Below, in pieces: positions 2,046-54,025 of a DNA stretch of 64,000 nt; position 1 is the first letter of the stretch; each line of letters opens with the position of its first letter. The position numbers and the translations under genes are program-made. The stretch lies in contig NZ_JACJVJ010000001.1 of assembly GCF_014237875.1 (NCBI RefSeq), positions 1,042,501-1,106,500 of the forward strand. Reading direction: 5' to 3'. The notes under the pieces are model-generated. The model saw only the letters and a program-made list of their open reading frames with translations. It was not told the origin of the DNA and ran no database searches. Source of the stretch: Parasphingopyxis marina. GTDB lineage: Bacteria; Pseudomonadota; Alphaproteobacteria; Sphingomonadales; Sphingomonadaceae.

Positions 2046-2963
2046 ATGTTGCATGACAATGGTGGGGCGCTGGCGGCGGCCGATCCGCCACCTGCCAGTC
2101 CCGGATCGGGCGTCAAGCATATGGGGGCGTTGAAGTTCTGGAAACGCGACAGTCGGGAACTCCGGCCGATGCCGAACGGCATCGCGGAAGGCGATGACGT
2201 CGAGGAGGTCAAGCTCGTTCTCCATCTCAGCGGCGAGGCCTTGCTCGAAAGCGGCGGCCGCGCTCAGACGCTGACCCCCAGCAGCTGGGGGCTGTACGCC
2301 TTTTCGAAATCCTGCCGGATCAAGGGGCCATATTCGCAACTCGTCGTGTCGATGCCGAAGCGCCTTCTTGCCGCGCGCAACCCCAATCTCGACCGCGTCA
2401 TGAAAAGGCAATTCTCCGCAGAAAGCCCAGCCATGGCGATGGCGTTTCGCTTTTTTACGTCGCTTTACGACAATGATTCCTCTGGCACAGCGTTCGCGCA
2501 CGAACTCGGCGATATCGGGATCCGGCTGCTGCAGGTGGCGCTCGACGAACAGCAAGCGCGGCTCGAAGGCCATACGCGGCAGGAAAAATTCCGTTCCCGC
2601 ATCAAGAGCTTTGTCGATACGCACCTTCACGATCCGGGGCTTTCCGTCGAAGCGATCGCGCGGGCCAATCATTGCAGTACCCGCTATCTGCAGAAGATGT
2701 TCGGCGATGCGGAAAGCATCGGCCGTTATCTCTGGCGGATGAGACTGGAACGCTGCAGCGCGGCGCTTGCTGATCCCTGCCACGCGCATCGATCCATTAC
2801 CGAGATCGCCTTCTCGCTGGGATTCAGCAATCCATCGCATTTCAGCCGGGTTTTCCGGGCGCGGTACGGAACCACCCCGCGCGAATATCGCGCCCTGATG
2901 CTGGAAAAGGCGGCCGAAACAAATGCTTTGCAGCGGCCGATGAAAGCGGACTGTGCCGCCTAG
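2046..2963 (+). CDS. AraC-family transcriptional regulator (copy 1)
   Basis: A 305-residue protein. Its C-terminal third has two helix-turn-helix motifs: LSVEAIARANHCSTRYLQKMF and ITEIAFSLGFSNPSHFSRVF, the latter the typical AraC signature. The N-terminal half is a cupin-like sensing domain of the AraC_binding_2 type. The ATG at 2046 is preceded by GGAGG five bases upstream, so the earlier tracked start is unlikely. It is clearly paralogous to the AraC gene at 12802, with the same architecture and matching segments such as the LRP-type turn and GRY-W-R-LERC. It may activate the GST/SnoaL/MFS operon that begins at 3144. Confidence 0.88.
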   Translation: MLHDNGGALAAADPPPASPGSGVKHMGALKFWKRDSRELRPMPNGIAEGDDVEEVKLVLHLSGEALLESGGRAQTLTPSSWGLYAFSKSCRIKGPYSQLVVSMPKRLLAARNPNLDRVMKRQFSAESPAMAMAFRFFTSLYDNDSSGTAFAHELGDIGIRLLQVALDEQQARLEGHTRQEKFRSRIKSFVDTHLHDPGLSVEAIARANHCSTRYLQKMFGDAESIGRYLWRMRLERCSAALADPCHAHRSITEIAFSLGFSNPSHFSRVFRARYGTTPREYRALMLEKAAETNALQRPMKADCAA

Positions 2964-3033
2964 GAAGTATCTTTGTTCCCCAGGCGAATCCCAGACCGGA
3001 AAGCCCGGTTTGATGGCTATAATAATATATTGA

Positions 3034-3047
3034 AAACATTGATGTTT
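3034..3047. promoter_or_regulatory. AAACAT-TG-ATGTTT inverted repeat
   Basis: A perfect 6-bp inverted repeat with a two-base centre lies in an AT-rich intergenic stretch about 100 bases before the GST start. It could be an operator for the GST/SnoaL/MFS operon. No regulator is assigned. Confidence 0.4.
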
Positions 3048-3143
3048 ATTCGCCTATCTGGGCTGCACCGGATGGGCCGGAACGGTTTGACAGCAGGCCC
3101 TGGGCAATCCTAGCTCGCTGCGAAGATATGGACAGGAAGCGGC

Positions 3144-3827
3144 ATGGTGAAATTCTATCTCGGCGGCGGCCCAAATCCCAGAAAGGTTGCGCTATTTCTC
3201 GAAGAGGCAGGCGTCCCTTACGAACCGATCTGGGTAAATACCGGCGAGGGGGAGCAGCATAGACCAGAATTTCTGGCTTTGAATCCCAATGCCAAGATTC
3301 CGGTCATCGTCGATGGAGACCGCGTGGTTTTCGATAGTAACGCGATCCTGCTCTACCTTGCCGAAAAGCACGAAATGTTCGTACCGGAGCGCTCCTCTCC
3401 GGAATGGGCCGAAATGATTTCCTGGCTGATGTTCATCGCGAGTGGGCTCGGGCCTTATAGCGGCCAATCGGTGCATTTCCGGCACGCGGCGCCGGAAGAG
3501 CAGCCCTATGCCATCACCCGCTACCTGTTCGAGGCGCGGCGCCACTTCGACATAGTGGAGGACCGGTTGGCCGGACGGGAGTGGCTTGTCGGCGACGATT
3601 ATTCGATCGTCGACATGGCTCTTTGGGGCTGGGCTGCCTTCCTGTCCCGTATCCTCGAAGAGGAAGACGTCGAACGTTATCCGAATGTTGCTGCGTTGGT
3701 CGAACGCATCGGTGCGCGCCCTGCCGCGGAACGGGCGATCGCGATAGGCAGTCGCCCCGGCGCCGGACCGCCCAAGGTTTATGCCAACCCGCATCTTTTC
3801 CGGTATCTTGCAACCGACAAGGGCTGA
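3144..3827 (+). CDS. Glutathione S-transferase
   Basis: A 227-residue cytosolic GST. The N-terminal thioredoxin-like domain shows GPNPRKVALFLEEAGV and the glutathione-binding LNPNAKIPVIVDGD plus DSNAILLYLAE segments. The C-terminal helical domain carries GDDYSIVDMALWGW. The pattern resembles the YfcG/Nu-like group rather than the three 'HWSP' GSTs farther along. It starts an apparent operon with two SnoaL-like genes and an MFS carrier, suggesting glutathione-dependent conversion of an imported aromatic compound. The substrate is unknown. Confidence 0.85.
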   Translation: MVKFYLGGGPNPRKVALFLEEAGVPYEPIWVNTGEGEQHRPEFLALNPNAKIPVIVDGDRVVFDSNAILLYLAEKHEMFVPERSSPEWAEMISWLMFIASGLGPYSGQSVHFRHAAPEEQPYAITRYLFEARRHFDIVEDRLAGREWLVGDDYSIVDMALWGWAAFLSRILEEEDVERYPNVAALVERIGARPAAERAIAIGSRPGAGPPKVYANPHLFRYLATDKG

Positions 3828-3837
3828 GCGCGTCGCG

Positions 3838-4371
3838 ATGAACACAGAAGACATGATTTCGCAATCCGACCTGCAATGGCTGATCGACCGGATGAAGATC
3901 CGCGATTGCCTCGGCCGGTATACGCGCGGACTGGATAGGCACGATGGTGCGCTGATCGCCAGCGCCTTCTGGCCCGAGGCGGAAATATTCTACGGCAAGC
4001 GCTTCGAGGGCGATCTCGACGATTTCGTCGAGTGGAGTAACGCCTCGCACGCCGAGCGCTGGACCCAGCATTCGCACAACATCACCAATCAGAATGTCGC
4101 GTTCGATGACGATCGTTCGGGCGCCGACGTTGAAAGCTATGTCCAGTTCTTCCACCGCGCGATCGGCGACGGCGTCAGCATCGGGGTCGGCCGCTATATC
4201 GACCGTTTCGAACAGCGCGGCGGGGAATGGAAGATCATCTCGCGCCTGCTCGTCGTGGATATGATGCTCGATGCCGAGCATCTGGATTTCGATGCCTCGG
4301 GATTTCCCGTCGGCAAATGGGGCGAAGGCGATCCGTCTTATTCCAGGCCTTTCGGCGGCCCGCGAAACTAA
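3838..4371 (+). CDS. SnoaL_4/NTF2-like protein
   Basis: A 177-residue protein without a signal peptide. The segment MKIRDCLGRYTRGLDRHDGA and the following FWPEAEIFYG are typical of the SnoaL_4 group found in ring-hydroxylating oxygenase and dehydratase clusters. The ATG at 3838 lies ten bases after the GST stop, so the longer tracked ORF start inside the GST is rejected. It is homologous to the next gene, with the same RGLDRHD and SAFWP motifs, suggesting tandem duplication. Its reaction is unknown. Confidence 0.8.
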   Translation: MNTEDMISQSDLQWLIDRMKIRDCLGRYTRGLDRHDGALIASAFWPEAEIFYGKRFEGDLDDFVEWSNASHAERWTQHSHNITNQNVAFDDDRSGADVESYVQFFHRAIGDGVSIGVGRYIDRFEQRGGEWKIISRLLVVDMMLDAEHLDFDASGFPVGKWGEGDPSYSRPFGGPRN

Positions 4372-40525: not shown

Positions 40526-41920
40526 CTACCCGGCCAGCCCCATGCGGGCCAGCCGCGGTGTGTCTTCCAATATCGTCGATTCCTCGCCCGTCCCGACGCT
40601 GACCGGTCCATGCGGCGTGAGCAGCGCGTTGATGTGCAATAGCGTCCGCCCGCCCGCGTTCCAGGCGTTCAGCTTGGCGGCGTCGATCGCTGCATCGGGG
40701 GGGTCGACGGGCATGATCTGGCTTGCCGTGAACAGGGCATCGGCGGCGTTCAGGATATCGGCCTCGGTGCAATCGTCGGCCGCCTCGGCGATCGCGGCGA
40801 GGCTCGCAGGGCCGTCGGCGAGCCGGTCGATGATCGCATGGGCGGCGAGATTGTCGAACCGCAGCGTTCCGGCGGGCGTTTTCGCAGTGAACTCGGCCTC
40901 GTCCGCGTCAACCCGTGCCATCCAGTACCCGTCCAGCCGCCGTGCATCGATCTCGCCCTTGTCGATCCTGTCGAAGGGCGGTTTCGCATAGATGTCGGTG
41001 CGGAATTGCGAGTGGAGATCGAGGTCGATGGTCAGTTCGCGGGTCTGCGGATCGGCGATCGATGCCAGCGCCTCGCGCTGTGCCTTTTTGAGGTAGAAAT
41101 CCTCACGCAACCGGACCGCCATGGCCGATCGGACGAAGCGAAGCCCTTGGGCCTCCGCCGCGCCGACGACGTCGGCGGACCAGAGCGGCTGCCAATGGGC
41201 GTTCAGATATTCGTGCGGGAAATAATCGTCGGGCAGCCGGGTCCGCAACTCGTCCATCCATTCGAAATGGCGTTCGCCGATGGTCGGCATGCCGGCCTGG
41301 CTCAGCGCGCGCGCTTCCTCGTATGCGCTTTCGAAACGCTCGGTGGGCGTGCCTTGCTTCGAACGGGAGAGCACCAGCAGCAGTTTCTGCATGGCCAGCC
41401 GCTGTGTCCATCCGGGCAGGCAGTTATAGCCGATCGTCGCGACGCCGCCGGCGGAAAGGTTGCGCGCGATCAGCGTCAGCACGTCGCGCCGATTCTCCGG
41501 GCTCACCCAGCTGAGCACGCCCTGGACCGCGATATAGTCGGCCGCGACGGGCTCATGCGCCAGCGTATCGTGGAAGGTCGCGCAATGCAGTTCGACATTG
41601 GCGATGCCGAGTTCGTTCGCGATTGCGCGACCGCGCTCGATATGGGCGGGCATGGCGTCGATGCCGACGAAGCAGCTTTCGGGATAGGCCGCGGCGATGA
41701 AGATCAGGCCAAGCCCGTCGCCGCAGCCGATATCCAGCATGGTAAAGGGGCGGTGCGCTTTGCCGCCCGTGCCGCGGGGCGGCGCTATGCCGTCCCGCAG
41801 CAGCAGGTCATCGATCCAGGACGGCGCGAAGGCAGCGTGGTAGGCGCTCGGATAGAGCGAGTCCCCGATATAGCCTTCGATGTCCGGCCGCCCCGTTCCG
41901 TCAACGTGAGAACGGGCCAA
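40526..41920 (-). CDS. SAM-dependent methyltransferase with C-terminal regulatory domain
   Basis: A 464-residue protein. The class I SAM-binding fold is clear: TMLDIGCGDGLGLIFIAAAYPES, GIDAMPAHIERG, and NVELHCATFHDTLAHEP. The second half looks like the methyltransferase regulatory domain (MethyTransf_Reg type) found in standalone bacterial methyltransferases. The start is TTG, four bases after the stop of precursor P1, suggesting coupling. By location it could methylate exported precursor peptides before secretion; that is inference. It is the last gene of the peptide-export locus. Confidence 0.82.
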   Translation of the reverse strand: MARSHVDGTGRPDIEGYIGDSLYPSAYHAAFAPSWIDDLLLRDGIAPPRGTGGKAHRPFTMLDIGCGDGLGLIFIAAAYPESCFVGIDAMPAHIERGRAIANELGIANVELHCATFHDTLAHEPVAADYIAVQGVLSWVSPENRRDVLTLIARNLSAGGVATIGYNCLPGWTQRLAMQKLLLVLSRSKQGTPTERFESAYEEARALSQAGMPTIGERHFEWMDELRTRLPDDYFPHEYLNAHWQPLWSADVVGAAEAQGLRFVRSAMAVRLREDFYLKKAQREALASIADPQTRELTIDLDLHSQFRTDIYAKPPFDRIDKGEIDARRLDGYWMARVDADEAEFTAKTPAGTLRFDNLAAHAIIDRLADGPASLAAIAEAADDCTEADILNAADALFTASQIMPVDPPDAAIDAAKLNAWNAGGRTLLHINALLTPHGPVSVGTGEESTILEDTPRLARMGLAG

Positions 41921-41924
41921 GCGC

Positions 41925-42146
41925 TTAGCGTTTCGGCGTCGTCTTGGCGATCGGCGGGCTGACCTTTTGCGTCAGGCTGTCGATCTTATAGTCCAGGTCT
42001 GCCGCCGCGTTGAGCGTCGGCCCGTTGCTGGTGAGGAGCCGGAGATAGACTTCGCCGCCGGCAACCCCGGCGAGCTCCGCCTCTTCGAGTTCGACGGTGC
42101 CGGCCTTGCTCACTTTCTCGCCCGCGCTTTTCTTTGCCTTGCTCAT
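41925..42146 (-). CDS. Double-glycine precursor peptide P1
   Basis: A 73-residue precursor. The leader VSKAGTVELEEAELAGVAGG ends in Gly-Gly, the cleavage site for the C39 domain of the exporter at 45584. The 42-residue core starts EVYLRLLTSNGPTLNAAAD and has no Cys. The core aligns with P2's (YLRL/YLKI, G-x-[TS]-L), so the two are paralogues. Leader type A (K-x-G-[TA]-V-E-L) is shared with P2, P4 and P6. It lies directly before the methyltransferase. Confidence 0.82.
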   Translation of the reverse strand: MSKAKKSAGEKVSKAGTVELEEAELAGVAGGEVYLRLLTSNGPTLNAAADLDYKIDSLTQKVSPPIAKTTPKR

Positions 42147-42181: not shown

Positions 42182-42409
42182 TCAGAGTTTGAGGGTCTTG
42201 GACGAAAGCGCTGTCTTGTACGCCTGATCCTCAATCTTCAGCGTCCGTTCGCCGATCGAATTGGCGTTGAATTCCAGCGATTCGCCTTTGATGTCACCGA
42301 TTTTGAGATAGCCGATGCCACCCTGGACGTCGCCGAGTTCGTTTTCGTCGAGTTCGACGGCGCCGGATTTGGTTACCTTGCCTTCGGTCTTCTTCGTTTC
42401 CTTGGTCAT
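42182..42409 (-). CDS. Double-glycine precursor peptide P2 (Hcp-like core)
   Basis: A 75-residue precursor with leader VTKSGAVELDENELGDVQGG and a 44-residue core. The core begins IGYLKIGDIKGESLEFNANS, strongly recalling the N-terminal strand of Hcp tube proteins of type VI secretion (consensus about YLKIdgIKGES). The resemblance then fades. It has no Cys. GGAG lies nine bases before the ATG. A hairpin and a CRP-like site lie upstream, so P2-P1-methyltransferase may form their own transcript. Confidence 0.85.
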   Translation of the reverse strand: MTKETKKTEGKVTKSGAVELDENELGDVQGGIGYLKIGDIKGESLEFNANSIGERTLKIEDQAYKTALSSKTLKL

Positions 42410-42556: not shown

Positions 42557-43084
42557 TCAACCGACCGCTCCATGTTCCTCGTCCATCAGCGCGATCAGGC
42601 GGACCATGCGGTCGCCTGCGACATGGACGATGTCGAGCAACCTTTCGTCGATTTCACCGTCGCCTCCGCCGCTGCCCGCGACATCGGCGGTCAGCGAGCG
42701 CAACCGGTCCGACAGGAAGGTGGCGAGCGCCTTGAAGAAGCGGCCCGCGAACGCCGGGTTGGTGCCAAGCTCCCTGTCGAGCGCGTCGCGCGGAACAGCC
42801 AGCAGGCGGCACGGTTCGGAGGCGATCACATCGGTATCGGGCGGGCGTTTTTCGACGAAGGACATTTCGCCGATCACATCGCCGACGCCTAGGCTAGCCA
42901 CGACGGCGCCGTTCGCCAGCCGCACGTCCATCGCGCCCGCGGTGAGAAAATAGAGGGCCTCTACGGGCACTCCCGCCCTTACCAGCCTTTCGCCCTCGCC
43001 AAGTTCGACGATCGAGCCGGCTTTCGACAGGAAGACGACGTCCTCCTCGGCAAGGTCGCCCAAGATGTACAGTGCCTTGCGCAT
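42557..43084 (-). CDS. Cyclic-nucleotide-binding-domain protein without DNA-binding domain
   Basis: A 175-residue protein. Residues 10-125 form a cNMP-binding beta-roll: VELGEGERLVRAGVPVEALYFLTAG and VGDVIGEMSFVEKRPPDTDVIASEPC (phosphate-binding cassette). The remaining C-terminal part is acidic and helical with no helix-turn-helix, so it is not a CRP regulator itself. It starts three bases after the ABC exporter stop. NHLM-type export loci commonly carry such domains; it may gate or regulate the transporter in response to a nucleotide. Confidence 0.85.
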   Translation of the reverse strand: MRKALYILGDLAEEDVVFLSKAGSIVELGEGERLVRAGVPVEALYFLTAGAMDVRLANGAVVASLGVGDVIGEMSFVEKRPPDTDVIASEPCRLLAVPRDALDRELGTNPAFAGRFFKALATFLSDRLRSLTADVAGSGGGDGEIDERLLDIVHVAGDRMVRLIALMDEEHGAVG

Positions 43085-43087
43085 TGC

Positions 43088-45583
43088 TCATTCCTCCATC
43101 AGCTGGCGGCGCGCGAGTGCGGCGAAGGCGCCGTCCGCGGCCATGAGGTCTTCATAACTGCCCTGCTCGGCGATCTTTCCCTTTTCGAGCACGCAGATGC
43201 GGTCCGCATTGACGATCGTCGAGAGACGGTGGGCGATGGTGATCCGGGTTGCGTCCATATTGTCGAGCGTTTCCGCGACGAGCGCCTGGCTCTGATTGTC
43301 GAGCGCGCTGGTCGCCTCGTCGAAGAACAGGATTTTCGGTCGGGCGACGAGCGACCGGGCGATCAGGATGCGCTGGCGCTGGCCGCCCGAAAGCACGGCC
43401 GCACCCTCGGTGATCGGCGTGTGGATGCCCATCGGAAAGCTTTCGAGATCGCGCGCGAGCCCCGCCTGGGCGGCGGCGGCGAGGCATTGCTCGAGGCCCG
43501 CATCGTGCGAACCGCGGATGTTGTCGATGATCGAACCGGCGAAGAGCGAGCTCGACTGGAGGACGACGCCGGCCTGGGCGCGGAGCAGCGAGAGATCGAG
43601 GTCCGCAAGCTCCTTGCCGTCGTAATAGATCGAGCCCTGGCGCGGGGTTTCGAAGCCAAGCAGCAGCCGCAGCAGGGTCGATTTGCCCGATCCCGATGCG
43701 CCGACGACCGCGAAATGCGCGCCGGCGGGGATGTCGAGCGAAACGCCGGAGAGTATGGGAGGCAGGCTCTCGTCATAGCCGAAACTGATATCGCGCACTT
43801 CGATGGCGCCGCTGAGATCGCCCGGATCCTTGCGGCTGCGGGCGATTTCCGGTTCGGCGGTCAGGATCGGTAAGGCGCGGTCGATTTGCGGCTGGGCGGC
43901 ATAGAGTTCGATCAATTGCGCCGAGAGCGATACAAAGGCGCCCTGAAAGGAACCGAAAGCGACGAGGAAGGCGATAAAACTGCCGGGCGCCATCTCGCCT
44001 TGCGCGAAGGTCGCGACGCCGGCGAACAGGGCGACTTGCGTCAACACCTGCCAGCTGTCCGAAATCGCGCTCGAATAGCCGGTGATCACGCCGGCGCGAT
44101 ATTCGAGCACGCGCTCCTCGCCATAGGAAGCGGCCCAGCGCGACAGCGCGCGGCGTTCGGCGGCGGCGCTCCGCAATTTCGCGACCGCGCCGATCATCTC
44201 GTAGCCCTGTTCGGCCAGCCGCCCGTCGATGGCGAAAGCCTCGCGGATCAGCGGCATCTGCAGCAGGCGCGTCACCGCGACGATGCCGATATACACCGAA
44301 ACCAGCGCCAGGGAGATCAGCGCCAACCCGATCCCGTAATAGGCGAGCACCCCGAAATAGAAGATCGAGAGTATCGCGGAGAGCCCGGCGGAAAGCGCGA
44401 TGGAAAGGATCAGCGCGCGAATGCCGTCGATGCCGGCAATACGCTGGTTGAGATCGCCCGCGCTATATTCGCGGAAGAAGGAGGCGGGCAGGCGCAGCAC
44501 CCGGTCGAATATGCCGGTCGAAAGCCGCGCGCTCGTCTTTCCCTGGATACGGCTCGTCGCCATGCCGCGTAGCGTCGACAGCAGGTAGGTGATCAGGCCG
44601 GCAAAGAGCAGGGCGAGGCCGACCGCGACGAGCAAACCCGCATCGCCCGAGGGCGCGATATCGTTGAGCAGCCATCCGGTGGCGAGCGGCACGATCGCGC
44701 CGAGAATCGCCATCAGTGTCGCGGCAATGCCGATGGTCTTCAACTCGTCGCCATTGCGAGCGAGCACATGCCGGGCGAGCGACCAGAAGCCGGTAATGCC
44801 GTCGGGCAGCGGAGCGGATATGGCATAGCCGGTGCGGTCGAACCGCGTCGCGCCGGGATCGAGCGGCGCGCCCGAGGCAAGCCGGTAGCCGCCGCTTTTC
44901 CAGATGGCGGAAACGAGCGCGCCGCCTTCCCCCTCGCGCAGGACAAGCGGCCCCTGATCGTGGAGCTGCCATTTGCCGGTGAGCGTGAGCTTGCGCACCG
45001 AAAGCCCGTAGCGATGGGCGAGCCGGGGGGTGTCGGCAAAGCCGAAGGCCTTGTCCCCGGGCCGGGTATCGGGAACGGGCACCTTCAGCGCGCGCGCGCA
45101 ATCGCGCAGAATATCGGCGAGGCTTGGTGGCGGCGGTTCGTCCGTTCGCGATTCCGCATCGACGGTACGGAGCCGGGCCAGTGCCGCGGCGTCGCGTTCC
45201 GCGGCTTGCGCGTCGAGGGCGGAATAGAGCGCGGCGTTGAAGGCTTGCGGCGTGGCGCTTTCGCCCGGGACAGTGCCGATAATCTCCCGCCAGCGGGCGA
45301 AGAGCCGATTTTCCTTCCCTGTATCGAGCGGCGCTACGGTAAGCGCGCCGCGCGCAACGAGAAGGAAGACGGCGTCCTCCGGTGCCGCCGGGAAAACCGG
45401 ATCGCCGGCTTCGACGATGCCGAGAAAAGACTGGCGGGCAGGGGTTCTGAGAAAAAGTTCGGCGACGCCTTCGGCGATGAGGAAGGCGCGACCGTCGCGC
45501 GCGCATTCGATCGGCGGCCCGGCGGCAAATTCCTGCCTGTCATCGCCGGCTTCGGGGCCGAACAGGATCGCGCGGCCGGCCAT
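43088..45583 (-). CDS. NHLM-type peptide-export ABC transporter, permease/ATPase (no C39 domain)
   Basis: An 831-residue inner membrane protein. About 280 N-terminal residues form a cytoplasmic domain of unknown role. Then come about six membrane helices (ELKTIGIAATLMAILGAIVPLATGW onward) and an ATPase with Walker A GASGSGKST, signature LSGGQRQRI and Walker B ILFFDEATSAL. Size and layout match the second transporter (ABC2) of NHLM bacteriocin systems. It directly abuts ABC1, and the two probably form a heterodimer that moves leader peptides across the inner membrane. Confidence 0.9.
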   Translation of the reverse strand: MAGRAILFGPEAGDDRQEFAAGPPIECARDGRAFLIAEGVAELFLRTPARQSFLGIVEAGDPVFPAAPEDAVFLLVARGALTVAPLDTGKENRLFARWREIIGTVPGESATPQAFNAALYSALDAQAAERDAAALARLRTVDAESRTDEPPPPSLADILRDCARALKVPVPDTRPGDKAFGFADTPRLAHRYGLSVRKLTLTGKWQLHDQGPLVLREGEGGALVSAIWKSGGYRLASGAPLDPGATRFDRTGYAISAPLPDGITGFWSLARHVLARNGDELKTIGIAATLMAILGAIVPLATGWLLNDIAPSGDAGLLVAVGLALLFAGLITYLLSTLRGMATSRIQGKTSARLSTGIFDRVLRLPASFFREYSAGDLNQRIAGIDGIRALILSIALSAGLSAILSIFYFGVLAYYGIGLALISLALVSVYIGIVAVTRLLQMPLIREAFAIDGRLAEQGYEMIGAVAKLRSAAAERRALSRWAASYGEERVLEYRAGVITGYSSAISDSWQVLTQVALFAGVATFAQGEMAPGSFIAFLVAFGSFQGAFVSLSAQLIELYAAQPQIDRALPILTAEPEIARSRKDPGDLSGAIEVRDISFGYDESLPPILSGVSLDIPAGAHFAVVGASGSGKSTLLRLLLGFETPRQGSIYYDGKELADLDLSLLRAQAGVVLQSSSLFAGSIIDNIRGSHDAGLEQCLAAAAQAGLARDLESFPMGIHTPITEGAAVLSGGQRQRILIARSLVARPKILFFDEATSALDNQSQALVAETLDNMDATRITIAHRLSTIVNADRICVLEKGKIAEQGSYEDLMAADGAFAALARRQLMEE

Positions 45584-47719
45584 CTATGCCTCCACCAGCC
45601 GCGCATAGGCGCCGGTGCCGCCGAGGAGCGCGTCATGGGTGCCGCGTTCGGCGATTCTGCCCTGGTCGAGCATGATGATCTCGTCGCAGTCGCGGATCGT
45701 GGAGAGGCGGTGGGCGATAACGATGCAGGTGATTCCGCGCCGCCGGATCGCCTCCATCACATGATGTTCGGTGACGGGGTCGAGCGCGCTCGTCGCTTCG
45801 TCCAGGATCAGGATCGAGGGATTGGTGGCGAGCGCGCGGGCGATCTCCATCCGCTGGCGCTCGCCGCCCGAAATATTGGTCGCGCCCGGCGCGAGTTCGG
45901 CGTCATAGCCGCCGGGAAGAGCGAGGATGCGCTCGTGGATCGCGGCGTCCTTCGCGGCGGCGATGATATCCTCTTCGGGGATCGTCGCGTCCCAGAGCGT
46001 GAGGTTGTCGCGCACCGTGCCCGCGAACAACACGACCTCCTGCCGTACATAGGAAAGCCGCGCCGCAAGCACCGTGCGCGGCCATTCGCGGCGCGCCCGC
46101 CCGTCGATCAGCACGTCGCCCGATTGCAGTTCGACGAGCCCACCGATCATCTTGCCGACCGTCGACTTGCCCGATCCCGATGCGCCGACCAGCGCCACCC
46201 GCTGCCCCGGCGATACGTCTATCGTCAGCCCGTCGATCAGCGGCGGATCGAGCGGGTTATAGCCGAAGCTCGCGGCGTCGAGCTTCAGCGCCCCGCGCGG
46301 CACCGCGTCGATCGGTCGCGCGCCGCTTTCGTCGAACACCGGATCGGCCTTCTGGTCCAGCGTATCGTCGAGCCGACCCAGAAAGGTGCGCACTTGCTGC
46401 AGTTCAGCGCCGAACGAGGCAAGCGCCGTCACCGGCCCCGAAAAGCTCATCGCCAGCGCCTGGAAGGCGATGAGTTCGCCCAGGGTGAATGCTCCCCGCA
46501 TCACCAGATAGCCACCGCCCACCAGCGTCGTCAGCACGATCAGCGTGGAGATGAGCCCGGGCAGCGGGGCGGTCCAGGCGCGTACCGCAGCGGCCTCCTG
46601 CATGCCGTTCACCGCGGTCGCCTGCAATCCCGTCCAGCGCCCGAAGAGCATCGTTTCTCCGCCGCTCGCCTTGTAGGTCTCGATATCCTTCAGCCCCGCG
46701 ATCCGCGCGCCCATCATCTTGCCCTGGTCGATGGACACCTTGCGGTATTTCTCCGAGATTACCCGCGCGGTGTAGACCAGCACCAGCGCGTTGAGGCTGG
46801 TGAGCAGCAGGATGACGAGGGTCAGCGGGATACTGAAGAACAAGAGCACGATCAGGTAGAAAACGGCGAGCAGCAGGTTGATCGCCGCCTGGATCATCTG
46901 GCCGGAAAGCAGGCTCACCAGGCCTTCGTTGAGGCGCACCCGGTCCGCGATCTCGCCGGTAAAGCGTTGCTCGAAAAAGCCGATCGGCAGGCGCAGCATG
47001 TGATCGAGCAGCTGGTAGCCGGTCCGCCCGCGCATCACAGCGCCCAGCCGGGTCAGCGCGATTTCCTGCAGGCTGACCAGCCCGAAGCGCAGCAGGCCGG
47101 TTATCGTCATCCCGATCAGGAGCGGCCACAGCCAGCTGTCGAGCGAGCGGACGAGCACATAATCGACGAAGATCTGGTTGAAGAAGGGCAGGGCGATGCC
47201 GGGTACCACCAGCGCCAGGCTGGCGAGGAAGACGAACAGCAGGCCGAGCTTATAGTCTTCCATCCGGGCCGCCAGCGATTCCACGATAGAGGGCCGGCTG
47301 TCGCCGGTTTCGAACGCATCGGTCGGCACGAAGGAGAGGACCACCCCGGTAAAGCTGCGCGAGAATTCCTCCATCGGCTCGCTGCGATGGCCCGAGGCGG
47401 GGTCGTTGAGGAAGACCTTGCCGTCCTTCATTCCTTCGACGACCAGGAAATGGTTGAAATTGACGAAGGCGATCATCGGAAAGCCGATATCGGGCAGCGT
47501 TTCCGGTTCTGCCTTCAGCCCCTTGGCTTCCAGCCCGAAGCTGCGCGCGGCTTTCAGGATGTTGGAGGCCTTGGCGCCGTCGCGCGAAATGCCGCACATC
47601 CCGCGCAATTCCTCCAGAGGTACGAACCGGTCATAACCGCCGAGGATCATCGCCAGCGCGGCCGCCCCGCACTCCGCCGCCTCCATCTGGAGGACCGTGG
47701 GCGTGCGAAACACCGTCAC
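45584..47719 (-). CDS. Peptidase-containing ABC exporter (C39 domain), NHLM ABC1 type
   Basis: A 711-residue bifunctional exporter. The N-terminal C39 peptidase has its catalytic residues in place: Gln11 and Cys17 in VLQMEAAECGAAAL, His90 in FNHFLVVEG and Asp106 in NDPASG. A six-helix membrane domain follows, then an ATPase (GASGSGKST, NISGGERQRMEIA, LILDEATSAL). It should cut the ten double-glycine leaders of this locus and export the cores. Start is GTG overlapping the HlyD stop; the ABC2 gene follows immediately. Confidence 0.93.
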   Translation of the reverse strand: MTVFRTPTVLQMEAAECGAAALAMILGGYDRFVPLEELRGMCGISRDGAKASNILKAARSFGLEAKGLKAEPETLPDIGFPMIAFVNFNHFLVVEGMKDGKVFLNDPASGHRSEPMEEFSRSFTGVVLSFVPTDAFETGDSRPSIVESLAARMEDYKLGLLFVFLASLALVVPGIALPFFNQIFVDYVLVRSLDSWLWPLLIGMTITGLLRFGLVSLQEIALTRLGAVMRGRTGYQLLDHMLRLPIGFFEQRFTGEIADRVRLNEGLVSLLSGQMIQAAINLLLAVFYLIVLLFFSIPLTLVILLLTSLNALVLVYTARVISEKYRKVSIDQGKMMGARIAGLKDIETYKASGGETMLFGRWTGLQATAVNGMQEAAAVRAWTAPLPGLISTLIVLTTLVGGGYLVMRGAFTLGELIAFQALAMSFSGPVTALASFGAELQQVRTFLGRLDDTLDQKADPVFDESGARPIDAVPRGALKLDAASFGYNPLDPPLIDGLTIDVSPGQRVALVGASGSGKSTVGKMIGGLVELQSGDVLIDGRARREWPRTVLAARLSYVRQEVVLFAGTVRDNLTLWDATIPEEDIIAAAKDAAIHERILALPGGYDAELAPGATNISGGERQRMEIARALATNPSILILDEATSALDPVTEHHVMEAIRRRGITCIVIAHRLSTIRDCDEIIMLDQGRIAERGTHDALLGGTGAYARLVEA

Positions 47720-48990
47720 TCGGTCACGCGTTCGCCGCTGCCCGCAAGCCCGGGAAAGAGCACCGCGATGAACGGGCGGCGCTCCAGGATCACATTCGCT
47801 TCCAGCATCGTTCCGCGGGTGATCGCCCAGGCGGGGCCGTCCGAGGACGACCAGAGGAACTGGCCGCTCTGTTCCGCCCGGTGCAGCCGGACGCGAACCT
47901 CGATCGGCGCGCCCTCGACCGACAGCTCGTCGACCAGCCGGTCGTTCTGCAGCACCCGGCGCATCGCCTCGCGGCTCGCCGGGAAGACCGCGGTCGAAAC
48001 AACCTCGCCATGGATATGGCCGTATATCTCGCGCTCGGCGGTGGTCGGAATGATCTCGACCGTCATGCCGGGGGCGATGCGCTTGCCGGTCGCCGGCCGG
48101 GCATAGAGCACGGCCTCATAGCTGTCGGCGCTCTCGGCCCCGCTGTTCCGGCTGTCGATCGTCGCGACGGTTTCGCCGGCGGCGATCACATCGCCGGCAT
48201 TGGCCTGTATTTCGAGAACGTCGCCGCGCTGGGGCGCGCGCAGCAGCACCTCGTCATCGGTCTGGGCACGCAATTGCGCCAGTTCGCGGCGGCGCTGGGC
48301 GACCAGCTGGCTTTCGCCGAGCCGTTCCTCGCCGCGCTCGTTGCGGCGCTGGGCCGTCGTCACCCCCAGCTGCATCCGTTCCTGCTCCAGCCGGCGCAGC
48401 TCTGCGCGCAGCTCGTCGCGCGAAGCGATGATGCTCGCCAGCTCCTCCTCCGTCGCGGCATTCTGTTCGACGAGCCCGCGCATATTGGCGACGGTTTCGT
48501 CGCGCGTTTCCAGAAGGCGGCGGACTTCGGCGGTGCGGGACCGCAGCGAGGCGAGCATCGCGCGCTCGGCCGCGCTCAATCCCGCATCGCCCGTTCGATA
48601 GGTGCTTTCGGCGGCGGCAGCCTGCGCCATCGCATCGCGCAGGGCAGCCTCCGCCGCGCGAATTTCGCGTTCGCGGCTGCGGCGGGAGAGTCGCGCGACG
48701 ACATCGCCGGCCTCCACCGTATCGCCGGGGCTGACGAGAATTTCCTCGACCCGCCCTTCATATTGCGCGGAAACTTCGGCCAGTCCCTCCGCGCTGATCA
48801 GGATACCGCGCGCTTCCACCTGTACCGGCACCCGGGCAGTGAACCCCCAGACGAGCGCGAACAAAATGACGGCGCCAACAATGGCGAGGAATATCCAGTT
48901 GGCGGGGCGGACGAGCTGGAGCGGCTGGTCGAGCCGATCCGGGCTCGCCATGCTGTCGATCGCTTCCTGCCTGAAAATCTGTCTGGCCAT
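47716..48990 (-). CDS. HlyD-family periplasmic adaptor (NHLM secretion protein)
   Basis: A 424-residue membrane fusion protein. One N-terminal membrane helix around residues 30-52 (WIFLAIVGAVILFALVWGF), a lipoyl half (YEGRVEEILVSPGDTVEAGD), long coiled coils to about residue 240, the second lipoyl half (RGDVLEIQANAGDVIAAGE) and a C-terminal beta domain. It links the ABC exporters to the NodT/TolC-type channel at 52514. It overlaps ABC1 in a GTGA arrangement. Confidence 0.9.
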   Translation of the reverse strand: MARQIFRQEAIDSMASPDRLDQPLQLVRPANWIFLAIVGAVILFALVWGFTARVPVQVEARGILISAEGLAEVSAQYEGRVEEILVSPGDTVEAGDVVARLSRRSREREIRAAEAALRDAMAQAAAAESTYRTGDAGLSAAERAMLASLRSRTAEVRRLLETRDETVANMRGLVEQNAATEEELASIIASRDELRAELRRLEQERMQLGVTTAQRRNERGEERLGESQLVAQRRRELAQLRAQTDDEVLLRAPQRGDVLEIQANAGDVIAAGETVATIDSRNSGAESADSYEAVLYARPATGKRIAPGMTVEIIPTTAEREIYGHIHGEVVSTAVFPASREAMRRVLQNDRLVDELSVEGAPIEVRVRLHRAEQSGQFLWSSSDGPAWAITRGTMLEANVILERRPFIAVLFPGLAGSGERVTE

Positions 48991-49061: not shown

Positions 49062-50156
49062 TCAGCTACGCCGGAGCACATTTGTCAAGCAATGGAGCCC
49101 GCCCAAATTTTCCGCGAGCTTCTGCGCCTCGCCGATCATTCGCACTTCGAAGCCGAAACCTTCCCAGATTTCGCGGTTCTGGCGGTCGGTGATTTCGAGC
49201 TCGGGCCAGTTGTCATGGCCATAGGCGGGAAGCCAGACGATGTCCGGTTCGCGCTGGACGAGCGCATTGTTGGAGGAAGCGTAATACCAGGTGCGCCGCC
49301 GCTTCTTGGGATCGTCCATATAGATCATCGGCAGCGGGTTGCGGGTGACGGCGAAACCCCGTGCTTCCAGATCTGCGGCGATGGCATTGAAGCGGTTCGC
49401 AAGGCAAAGCGGGTGCGGCGGCAGCCCAAGCATCTCTGCCGCCATCGCCGGATCGCCGACCAAAATCCGTTCGCCGCCGCCTGCGCCTTTTCCGGCAAGC
49501 GTCAGGAACATATCGATATGGAAAACCGGCTGCCGGGTGCCTTCTTTCGCGCGATAATGGAAAATCTCCCGCCATTCTTCCTCTCCGGCATGGGCGGTGC
49601 GGAAGGTTTCGGACGGGGCGTCGTCGGCCGAACCGATCGGCACGATTTCGCGGCGATCGCCCTCCAAATCGCGCAGCGCCGTTTCGAACAATGCCGCGCC
49701 GTCATCGCCAAGGGCCGTCAGCGTATCGACCCCGACGAAGAGATGGCTTTCCCCGACAAGGATGTTGCCGCCTTCGAAGGCGACCGGCGAGGGCGCGGAA
49801 GCGAGCTCCGTCTTTTCCGCCAGCGTGGCGGCGGCGCGGAGATCGTCGCGGCGTTCCAGTTCGGGTGTGGTGAGCAGCGCCGGCGCGCCATTGGCTGCCG
49901 CCGCGATTAGCGGATCGCGCGCCCAGGGCGTGATGCTGATGTCCGGAATTTCGACGATAGCGAGGCGGGCCGGGTCGCAGGGCCAGCGCGCGATATGCGG
50001 CTGCGCGCCGGGTTCGGCGGCGACGGTGATCGCCGCATCGGCAGGCAGGCTGGCCACCAGCGCGCCATAGATCGCTGCAAAATGCTCGGCTTCATATTCG
50101 GGGGCGAACAGCAGCAGGTGGCGGATCGGTCCGGCTGCACTGCATAATAGATGCAC
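49062..50156 (-). CDS. Peptidyl-arginine-deiminase/agmatine-deiminase-like enzyme
   Basis: A 364-residue deiminase of the guanidino-modifying superfamily. Substrate loop TPWARDPL near residue 77, EGGNILVG near 128, His213-Asp in VFHIDMF and the nucleophilic Cys356 in GGLHCLTNVLRR form a complete catalytic set. It has no signal peptide. It sits between precursor genes and HlyD in the same direction with gaps near 70 bases. That location suggests it converts arginine to citrulline in the precursor peptides before export, but it could be an unrelated agmatine deiminase. Start is GTG. Confidence 0.8.
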   Translation of the reverse strand: MHLLCSAAGPIRHLLLFAPEYEAEHFAAIYGALVASLPADAAITVAAEPGAQPHIARWPCDPARLAIVEIPDISITPWARDPLIAAAANGAPALLTTPELERRDDLRAAATLAEKTELASAPSPVAFEGGNILVGESHLFVGVDTLTALGDDGAALFETALRDLEGDRREIVPIGSADDAPSETFRTAHAGEEEWREIFHYRAKEGTRQPVFHIDMFLTLAGKGAGGGERILVGDPAMAAEMLGLPPHPLCLANRFNAIAADLEARGFAVTRNPLPMIYMDDPKKRRRTWYYASSNNALVQREPDIVWLPAYGHDNWPELEITDRQNREIWEGFGFEVRMIGEAQKLAENLGGLHCLTNVLRRS

Positions 50157-50228: not shown

Positions 50229-50462
50229 CTATTTTTTCACAAAGACGATTTCCTCGGTCACCACGCTCTTGCCGGTTCCCGTGATGTTCGAACCTGTGGT
50301 GTGGCCCGAACTCAAAAACTCGTCGGCCGTGCCGTTCGCGCCACCGCCACTTACCTTGCTCGGCCAGGCATTCTCAAGGTTCCACTGCTTCACTTCGCCG
50401 CCAGTCACCTGATCGAGCTCCTTTTCGCCGAGCTCTTTGGCTTTCTTGTTTTTGGCCATCAT
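50229..50462 (-). CDS. Double-glycine precursor peptide P3 (tail-tube C-terminal-like core)
   Basis: A 77-residue precursor. Leader KAKELGEKELDQVTGG (type B) then a 55-residue core. The core EVKQWNLENAWPSKVSG recalls the W-N-x-x-N-A-W-P-x-K stretch of gp19-type phage and contractile-injection tube proteins, and its end SVVTEEIVFVKK resembles their VAIEEIVLAHE segment. Between these lies ADEFLSSGHTTGSNI, shared with P8. It has no Cys or Arg in the core. It is the last precursor before the deiminase. Confidence 0.85.
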   Translation of the reverse strand: MMAKNKKAKELGEKELDQVTGGEVKQWNLENAWPSKVSGGGANGTADEFLSSGHTTGSNITGTGKSVVTEEIVFVKK

Positions 50463-50539
50463 CTGTCTTTCTCACCTGGCCCGGGGCGGGATGCCTCGGG
50501 ATCGGGCTCTGCCGCCCGAATGGGACGGAAATCCGCCGC

Positions 50540-50553
50540 ATACCGGACGGTAT
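50540..50553. repeat. Inverted repeat ATACCG-GA-CGGTAT
   Basis: A perfect six-base inverted repeat just after the P4 stop, between P4 and P3. Could be a small RNA hairpin modulating the ratio of precursor mRNAs, or an operator. Confidence 0.35.
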
Positions 50554-50560
50554 CGGCTCG

Positions 50561-50800
50561 CTATTTGCGGATCTTCGTGCCCTTGGTCGCTCGCACGCCA
50601 AGCCTGTCGGTGGCGCGGATGCCGGCCCGGATTCCGACCTCGTCGGTGGTCAGTCGCGGCTTCACGCCCTCGATCTCGACCTTGAAGTTGTAGGCGCCGA
50701 ACAATTCTTCGGTGCCGCCGCCCTGTACTGAGTCCAGGTCTTTTTCCTCGAGCTCGACGGTGCCGGCCTTGGTCACTTTGTCGTCGGTTTTCTTGGTCAT
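50561..50800 (-). CDS. Double-glycine precursor peptide P4 (tail-tube N-terminal-like core, Arg repeats)
   Basis: A 79-residue precursor with type A leader VTKAGTVELEEKDLDSVQGG. The core GTEELFGAYNFKVEIEGV resembles the first strand of gp19-type tail tube proteins (about Y-N-F-x-V-E-I-D-G). The C-terminal part has an Arg repeat, EVGIRAGIRATDRLGVRATK, making it the most Arg-rich core and the best candidate substrate for the deiminase. No Cys. CGGAGA precedes the ATG. Confidence 0.85.
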   Translation of the reverse strand: MTKKTDDKVTKAGTVELEEKDLDSVQGGGTEELFGAYNFKVEIEGVKPRLTTDEVGIRAGIRATDRLGVRATKGTKIRK

Positions 50801-52502: not shown

Positions 52503-52518
52503 TGTGATTGGCATCACT
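52503..52518. promoter_or_regulatory. CRP-like site TGTGATTGGCATCACT before P10
   Basis: Matches TGTGA-N6-TCACA except for the final base. It overlaps the NodT-gene stop and is 60 bases before the P10 start. TTATGCT just downstream on the minus strand could be a -10 element. It probably controls the whole precursor-exporter transcript. Confidence 0.6.
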
Positions 52519-54025
52519 GGTCCGCATTTTCCCGATTTCGCGCGGCCAGCGTGATTGCGGGATCTTCCTCCAGCCCGCCGCCGATGGCGAGATGCAGGTC
52601 GATCCGGTTGAACAGCCTCGCCCGGCGGGCGGAAAGAAAGGCGCTGCGGGCGTTGAGCGCGCGCTGCTGGCTTTCGAGCACATTGAAGAAGGATTCGATG
52701 CCCGCACGGTAGCGCAGGGTCGAGATTTCGGTTGCCTGTTCGGCGGCCTGGGCGGCCTGGCCGAAAGCGGTTTCCTGATTGGCGATGATTCCGTCGACGG
52801 CGAGCGCGGTTTCGACCTCGAACAGCGCCTGTAGCGCGGTCTCGGCATAGGCCTCTATCGCCTCGTTGCGCTCGCCCTCCCGGAATTCGAGCTGCGCGCG
52901 CAGCCGCCCGCCCTGGAAAATCGGCTGGAGCAGCCGCCCGGCGATCGACCAGACAAGGGTCAGCGGATCGAACAGGCCGGCGAAGGACGCCGCGGACGTG
53001 CCGGCCGATCCGGTAAGCGTGAGCGACGGCAGGAAAGAGGCTTCGGCGGCGTCGATACGAAAGCCCGCCGCCTCGATCCGGTGCCGCGCCGAACGGACAT
53101 CGGGCCGCCGGTCCAGAAGTCCGGCCGGAACGCCGGCGGGCGGCGGCGGCGGCACGTCGGGAAGCGAGGCCGCGAGCGTGTCGATGCCGTCTGGATAATC
53201 GCCGACGAGGATTTCGAGCCGCCGGATCAGGCGCTGGTAATCCTCGCGCCGCTGTTCCAGCCCCGCGCGCGCCGTCTGCTGGTCGGTGATCGCGAGCGCG
53301 GCAAGGCTCTGCGGCGTAACGCCGGCTTCGACACGCAGGTTCAATTGGCGGATCAGCTCGTCATAGGTGGCGAGTACCCGCGTCGAGAGTTCGACCTGCG
53401 CCTGGGCTTCGACGACGGCGAGATAGGTGCGCGCGGTTTCGGCGGCGATCAGCTGGCGCGTTGCCTGAAGGTCGGCGGCGCTTGCCCGGTATTCGGCGCG
53501 CGCGGCGGCGCTTTCGGACGAGATGCGCCCCCAGATATCGGCCTCCCAAGCGACATCGATACCAAGATCGAAACGGGCGGGGAGGGACGGCGCGCCCTCG
53601 ATGCCACGTTCCTCGGCGCCGAATGTCGCGCCGGCCTGCGGGTACAGGTCCGATTCCTCGATCCGGGCCGCGGCGCGCGCCTGTCGCAGCCGCTCGATCG
53701 CCTGGCCTATCGAAGGGTTTCCCGAAAGCGCGCGCTCGACGAAGCTTTCGAGCAGCGGATCGCCGAAGCTTTCCCACCAGCGCCCGTCAATCTCCACCGG
53801 TGCCGCGGAATCGGCGGAGGTGAATTCGGCCGGCACGGCATCCATGATCGCGGGCCGGCTCTCGGCGGTGCGCGGCGCGCAGGCCGCTACCGGTATCAGC
53901 AGCGCCACCGCGCCGCACAGCGCCGCGCGGCGTCGACCTGCCGGAAGAAGCCCGATCGGCACGGTCAGCGCCGGGGGGATGCGAAAGCGTTCATCGCCGC
54001 GCACGATATTGGGTTCCCGGGGCAA
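52514..54025 (-). CDS. NodT/TolC-type outer membrane channel lipoprotein
   Basis: A 503-residue outer membrane factor. A lipoprotein signal ends LLIPVAAC (lipobox). WWESFGDPLLESFVERAL and two long repeats of helical hairpins follow, e.g. IEESDLYPQAGATFG and IDAAEASFLPSLTLTG, the duplicated OEP motif. It provides the exit channel for the HlyD/ABC exporter. The start is uncertain: the tracked TTG at 54025 or the GTG at 53962, with no good ribosome site for either. The sulfatase gene ends 23 bases upstream. Confidence 0.88.
   Translation of the reverse strand: MPREPNIVRGDERFRIPPALTVPIGLLPAGRRRAALCGAVALLIPVAACAPRTAESRPAIMDAVPAEFTSADSAAPVEIDGRWWESFGDPLLESFVERALSGNPSIGQAIERLRQARAAARIEESDLYPQAGATFGAEERGIEGAPSLPARFDLGIDVAWEADIWGRISSESAAARAEYRASAADLQATRQLIAAETARTYLAVVEAQAQVELSTRVLATYDELIRQLNLRVEAGVTPQSLAALAITDQQTARAGLEQRREDYQRLIRRLEILVGDYPDGIDTLAASLPDVPPPPPAGVPAGLLDRRPDVRSARHRIEAAGFRIDAAEASFLPSLTLTGSAGTSAASFAGLFDPLTLVWSIAGRLLQPIFQGGRLRAQLEFREGERNEAIEAYAETALQALFEVETALAVDGIIANQETAFGQAAQAAEQATEISTLRYRAGIESFFNVLESQQRALNARSAFLSARRARLFNRIDLHLAIGGGLEEDPAITLAARNRENADQ

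Follow-up and report, generated by a model that had tools for sequence, protein, structure and literature searches.

Background

The NHLP export system was described by Haft, Basu and Mitchell in 2010 (PMC2887384), and with its NHLP/Nif11-type precursors the locus reported here shares a three-part exporter (TIGR03796, TIGR03794 and, just below its cut-off here, TIGR03797), a GG-type cleavage motif, hypervariable cores and precursors that are partly scattered through the genome. Class II bacteriocins with double-glycine leaders resemble it as well, both in leader style and in the possession of a dedicated peptidase-ABC exporter. To our knowledge, the cores of exported peptides normally resemble nothing. 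The cores considered here carry motifs of specific foreign proteins, so that their targets become guessable from sequence.

The window (that is, the whole 64,000-nucleotide stretch of Parasphingopyxis marina DNA that was analyzed) encodes ten such peptides. The original prediction concerned two of them, termed P3 and P4, whose cores were said to resemble opposite ends of a phage- or CIS-type tail-tube protein. Here these and related cores from other genomes are compared with protein family models, with shuffled sequences and with unrelated peptide loci.

Results

The export operon and its enzymes

From the TolC gene (54025) through a methyltransferase gene (40526), every gene lies on the minus strand, in the order TolC, eight double-glycine-leader peptides (P10 to P3), a 364-residue enzyme, HlyD, ABC1, ABC2, a cyclic-nucleotide-binding protein, two long-leader peptides (A2 and A1) and the methyltransferase. 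The NHLP secretion HlyD-like protein (47716-48990; TIGR03794, 248 bits) and the NHLP export peptidase/permease/ATPase ABC1 (45584-47719; TIGR03796, 917.4 bits) pass their cut-offs of 156.2 and 853.3 bits, respectively; ABC2 (43088-45583), whose best family is TIGR03797, falls at 683 bits just under the cut-off of 709.4. The outer-membrane channel (52514-54025) is of the TolC/NodT type (TIGR01845), and the cyclic-nucleotide-binding protein (42557-43084) is TIGR03896-like, below cut-off. ABC1 of this NHLP type is patchily distributed within the host's family.

The leaders of the window peptides, 20 to 31 residues long, score near bacteriocin and RiPP leader models in NCBIfam, and yield no match to nitrile-hydratase-like or Nif11-like leaders in either Pfam or NCBIfam. 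Taken together, the leaders and the NHLP operon make export of the peptides probable. Searches found no sigma-70 promoters within the peptide array, and within the operon no immunity gene was recognized and no cyclodehydratase or lanthionine synthetase was seen. A leader-profile search finds such peptides in few genomes, with further copies scattered in the host genome; one scattered leader peptide (L152, G000:C1:1336000-1342000, positions 2591-4020) lies directly 5' of a radical-SAM-like ORF (CNLRCRYCY).

The 364-residue enzyme (49062-50156) appears to be a pentein, i.e., to have the agmatine/peptidylarginine deiminase fold: its FEGGN, HID and GGLHCLTN motifs are invariant among three relatives, and its predicted fold (from a three-sequence alignment, mean pLDDT 66) resembles both agmatine deiminase (E 3e-9) and the peptidylarginine deiminase of P. 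gingivalis (E 3e-8), PAD_porph being its sole, weak sequence match. A pentein-fold enzyme is kept in the peptide operons of near relatives (L040:3706-4809, L038:7536-8609). On the strength of this modeled fold, the enzyme could be a candidate arginine modifier of peptide cores with GIRA repeats. The methyltransferase (40526-41920), which has a PF10119 regulatory domain, adjoins a long-leader peptide with an Hcp-like core both here and in four other genomes (L040, L044, L155 and L182); these long-leader cores carry Y-[IL]-K-[ILVF], like the first strand of Hcp.

P3, P4 and the tail tube

Both peptides lie where the original prediction placed them and both are encoded on the minus strand. Within the core of P3 (50229-50462), which reads EVKQWNLENAWPSKVSGGGANGTADEFLSSGHTTGSNITGTGKSVVTEEIVFVKK, the stretch QWNLENAWPSKVSG is similar to the C-terminal part of gp19/CIS tail-tube proteins. 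Among 24,736 Pfam models the tube family PF06841 is the top match of P3 (E 0.0072 with the leader, 0.016 for the core by itself), residues 21-47 aligning to profile positions 93-119 of 134; with only 27 of 134 positions covered, the score of 16.6 bits lies under the gathering threshold of 28.2. In NCBIfam it matches TIGR02241, a phage tail region model (E 0.019), and phage-tail (tube) proteins rank first and second among 177,635 PDB sequences (8bl4_v, E 0.083; 9r9h_B, E 0.088), the matched segment of 8bl4 being VKRWNLRNAWCSKV. Against a tube HMM custom-built from 20 proteobacterial proteins P3 scores 14.0 bits, the maximum among 64,000 shuffles being 10.4; a related peptide from another genome (RQYNLENAWPT) scores 13.4 bits. 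A search of PHROGs gave no tail-tube match, and the likeness is therefore to CIS-type bacterial genes and not to phage families. A tblastn search of plasmids with the P3 core is by itself unsupportive (best E 4; one of six matches annotated as a phage tail protein). The resemblance of P3 to a tail tube, as judged from sequence, is nevertheless firm, though one detail claimed for it--a match to the C-terminal V-x-x-E-x-[IL] segment--lies in register yet falls short of significance (-0.9 bits).

The core of P4 (50561-50800), GTEELFGAYNFKVEIEGVKPRLTTDEVGIRAGIRATDRLGVRATKGTKIRK, contains AYNFKVEIEGV, which weakly resembles the first strand of the tail tube and is followed by GIRA/VRATKG repeats. 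Its score against the tube HMM is 4.0 bits, at positions 11-25, which correspond to the first strand; measured against shuffles of P4 itself, this gives p=0.003. No Pfam model matches P4. The first half, TEELFGAYN, is a module that two relatives likewise have in peptides without a tube-like continuation and that was sought in plasmids without success; because of these relatives, the tube likeness of P4 ranks among the weakest of the set. A first-strand resemblance of P4 is plausible. In sum, the predicted likeness survives comparison of profile scores with those of shuffles, clearly for P3 and modestly for P4. The further suggestion, of a pair of peptides that copy the two ends of a single protein, is too narrow: motifs of several families occur in the majority of the ten peptides of the window and in many peptides of relatives.

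The remaining window peptides

The other eight peptides likewise lie on the minus strand. In P5 (50838-51014) a 15-residue stretch of the core corresponds to the planctomycete DUF1559 N-terminal signature (19.8 bits, p<=0.001). The core of P6 (51114-51359) contains GHELTHVQQ, the eCIS_core/DUF4157 signature; it matches PF13699 with E values of 0.0085 and 0.0049 in two Pfam scans and scores 16.2 bits against a custom HMM, exceeding all shuffles. P7 (51423-51590) is a GG-leader peptide with the shared tail KQMERVFEDE. P8 (51690-51899), with GDGSVR and FLSSGHTTGSN, weakly resembles the H-X9-DG region of DUF1559 proteins (TIGR04294, E 4.9). P9 (51948-52142) contains LVVDGDFGPAGRKG, a peptidoglycan-binding motif by eye only, and has a weak Hcp score; a Pfam scan of its core was empty. 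P10 (52210-52443) joins an Hcp C-terminal strand (VPVESFSLNFEKIK) to an AAA+ motif (FIGETEKNL) and a PG_binding_3 motif (VDGIVGPKT). Of the long-leader peptides, A2 (42182-42409), which lies near the methyltransferase gene as it does in relatives, carries the Hcp N-terminal strand YLKIGDIKGES, and A1 (41925-42146) has a weakly Hcp-like core (EVYLRLLTSNG, p=0.01). Across the window the families represented are thus tube, Hcp, AAA+, eCIS_core, PG_binding_3 and DUF1559, sometimes two or three to a core.

Mosaic cores across genomes

The wider set comprises 64 double-glycine-leader peptides from ten genomes; it includes near-orthologues from related species and therefore does not amount to 64 independent cases. 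The signatures recurring in its cores are those of the tail tube, of the T6SS protein Hcp (the N-terminal strand seen in A2, a middle strand, YKITLQNVEIKSFQTGG, and a C-terminal strand, ENFSLNYEKIKF), of the eCIS-type AAA+ ATPase (KYIGETEKNL, FFDEADAIFGKR, DSHDAYANLEVSHLK and GLTILTTNFKGN), of eCIS_core (the GHELTHVQQ of P6), of PAAR-like proteins, of a peptidoglycan-binding motif and of DUF1559. One core of a relative joins two of these as HELTHVGQQ...KYIGETEKNL.

With custom HMMs for five families (picked after the cores had been seen), each core being set against 1000 shuffles of itself, 28 of the 64 cores match one family at p<=0.002, where 0.64 would be expected; of 33 cores taken from NHLP loci unrelated to these, none exceeds the 0.1% cut with the same HMMs. 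Pfam and NCBIfam scans, with shuffled cores as control, are free of this post hoc choice. Among 60 cores, Pfam finds eCIS_core in five (best E 3.9e-6), DUF1559 in two (3.5e-8), gp19 in two and, once each, Tox-PAAR-like (6.8e-4), PG_binding_3 (0.021) and Hcp (0.17); the 60 shuffles, one to a core, yield four unrelated singletons, the best at 0.025. A Pfam gathering score is passed by two cores from elsewhere than the window, one from the host genome and one from a relative. In NCBIfam, four cores match the H-X9-DG motif that marks DUF1559-type proteins (best 4.6e-5), and the shuffles yield a single unrelated match (0.16). By BLASTP at E<=0.01, eight cores match ORFs of eCIS loci versus one matching ORFs of control loci; examples are ADSHDAYANLEVSHLKSKL / SDARDRYANLEVSHLLSRL and an exact match of KYIGETEKNL. 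Roughly half of the cores have no match at all, nor do the C-terminal tails that recur among them. On these sequence comparisons a mosaic anatomy of many of the cores is very highly probable, and chance is refuted for the peptide set; for P4, P8 and P9 taken singly it is possible.

Several individual loci add detail. The C-terminal tails (in the window, L032, L038, L187 and L181) fall into the classes (V/I)VAxGGGSGI, KGMERVFEDE and [FIV]K[FY], for which no donor family was found. In a Hyphomicrobiales genome (L073, 15396-16119; the same as L189) one core spans much of a shortened Tox-PAAR-like domain (the Pfam match of E 6.8e-4), which may represent capture at an earlier stage, and the adjoining core is similar to a portion of an eCIS_core protein (E 9e-4). 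In the array of one relative (L038, 5738-6682) the motif order is tube, AAA+, AAA+ with QYNPET and eCIS_core, an arrangement like that of the genes in an eCIS operon; this could be chance.

Origin, retention and turnover of the motifs

Searches of the host genome found no tube (PF06841) and no eCIS_core (PF13699) match at E<=0.001, and no Hcp (PF05638) match at E<=0.1; two members of the host's family yield tubes when searched in the same way, and a control genome gave an Hcp match. Full-length DUF1559 (PF07596) was likewise not found in the host genome, the only match being a leader peptide (L147) at positions 1-25 of 268. Since no such donor genes were found in the host genome, the motifs appear foreign to it. 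When two DUF1559-like cores were searched against 7.3 Gb of plasmids, matches occurred solely in planctomycete DUF1559 genes. L147 itself (G000:C1:696000-702000, positions 2532-2705) is a scattered leader peptide with a 36-residue core that resembles a segment of planctomycete DUF1559 proteins (Pfam E 3.5e-8) and that is 67-69% identical to plasmid-borne genes. Three other conceivable sources were considered and set aside: tail-tube or Hcp genes of the same genome, of which none were found; a leader fused to a full-length donor, for which the one long frame examined (G366, E 0.03) was spurious; and, for the DUF1559 sequences, planctomycete genomes with NHLP, where matches were weak and atypical.

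Modules are reshuffled between species as well as within the window, where P3 and P8 have a 65-nucleotide module in common (77% identity). Cores at equivalent array positions align poorly, and turnover between species is rapid. When ten pairs of orthologues were compared between two congeners, the motif segments showed 80% identity, and 62% of their changed codons were synonymous; the corresponding figures are 55% and 33% for what remains of the core and 74% and 54% for the leader. This comparison involves ten pairs only, and motif boundaries were drawn after the sequences had been seen. It suggests that the motif segments are what is retained in the cores.

Discussion

The explanation favored here runs as follows. 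Fragments of foreign genes encoding these motifs would have been joined behind a leader and then reshuffled; the ABC1 peptidase would cut the peptides after GG, and they would exit through HlyD and TolC, with arginine deimination (by the pentein) or methylation perhaps preceding export; outside the cell they may then act as molecular mimics--decoys or assembly poisons--of the machines of neighbors. Within this chain, we infer both motif capture and peptide modification. To the explanation as a whole--an NHLP-type export operon, mosaic cores, capture of foreign fragments and mimicry of neighbors' machines--we assign a probability of roughly 0.45. Its functional part is more doubtful: mimicry of, or interference with, such machines is the leading guess but a tentative one, and the fuller picture of an exported library of captured injection-machine and planctomycete signatures, its entries gained and reshuffled, that jams or deflects those machines, is no less tentative. 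Several of the mimicked motifs, those of AAA+ type, come from cytosolic proteins, so that an extracellular peptide interfering with them would need to enter the target cell.

The main rival, possible though not the reading we prefer, holds that these are ordinary bacteriocin- or RiPP-like precursors whose cores derive from captured fragments, whose activity comes from the tails, GIRA repeats, deimination and methylation, and whose motif likeness reflects ancestry. The leader scores agree with this, as do the pentein and methyltransferase genes that travel with the peptides and the tail classes that recur independently of the motifs; it does not account for motif segments better conserved than the linkers, nor for the non-random choice of captured families, which are mostly injection-system components plus DUF1559. 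Were the peptides instead the product of neutral birth and decay--leaders fused to foreign eCIS, Hcp and DUF1559 fragments that turn over without selected function--the rapid turnover, the poor alignment of cores at matching positions and the duplication of the P3/P8 module within the window would all be natural, but the synonymous bias of motif segments and the retention of arrays beside the transporter, in one operon, in several species argue against it and render it unlikely.

Two further readings have far less in their favor. That several pieces of a single tube or Hcp protein, each with its own leader, come together again outside the cell to form a tube-like particle would fit the coverage of N- and C-terminal segments by P4 and P3 (tube) and by A2 and P10 (Hcp); the largely missing middle segments of both proteins, the fusion of several motifs within single cores, and AAA+, eCIS_core and DUF1559 motifs for which such a particle has no place make it very improbable. 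Chance resemblance of short, low-complexity peptides could be argued from the sub-threshold Pfam score of P3 taken alone and from the weakness of P4, but as a general explanation it is the least credible of all, given how the custom-HMM, Pfam and NCBIfam scans separate cores from shuffles and given the two cores that pass Pfam gathering scores.

If the favored mimicry is functional, then the peptides would represent a bacterial means of countering injection systems and neighbors across phyla; if the likeness reflects ancestry only, they are still a clear example of how peptide genes arise through the capture of gene fragments. Either reading is open to testing with synthetic peptides.

Comparison with known systems

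A literature search for mimicry of this kind, with most subscription journals outside its scope, found no report. With extracellular contractile injection systems (eCIS)--whose components include the gp19-type tube, the AAA+ ATPase and the DUF4157/eCIS_core protein--the peptides share short sequence signatures of these components; unlike eCIS, they consist of about 30-60 residues, have export leaders and include nothing able to build a particle. With the planctomycete DUF1559 (H-X9-DG) proteins they share a 32-residue signature stretch and DGSVKFIxDSI motifs, but they lack a pilin-like hydrophobic N-terminus, carry single motifs behind a GG leader and reside in a relative of the sphingomonads. 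The cores of class II bacteriocins differ in that those found here contain identifiable motifs of foreign proteins, with no immunity gene recognized, whereas the NHLP/Nif11-type precursors differ in that the leaders here are short, without nitrile-hydratase or Nif11 matches, and the cores are mosaics of foreign signatures. In other words, the system is an NHLP-type leader-peptide exporter, whose export anatomy was known already, with a new kind of core.
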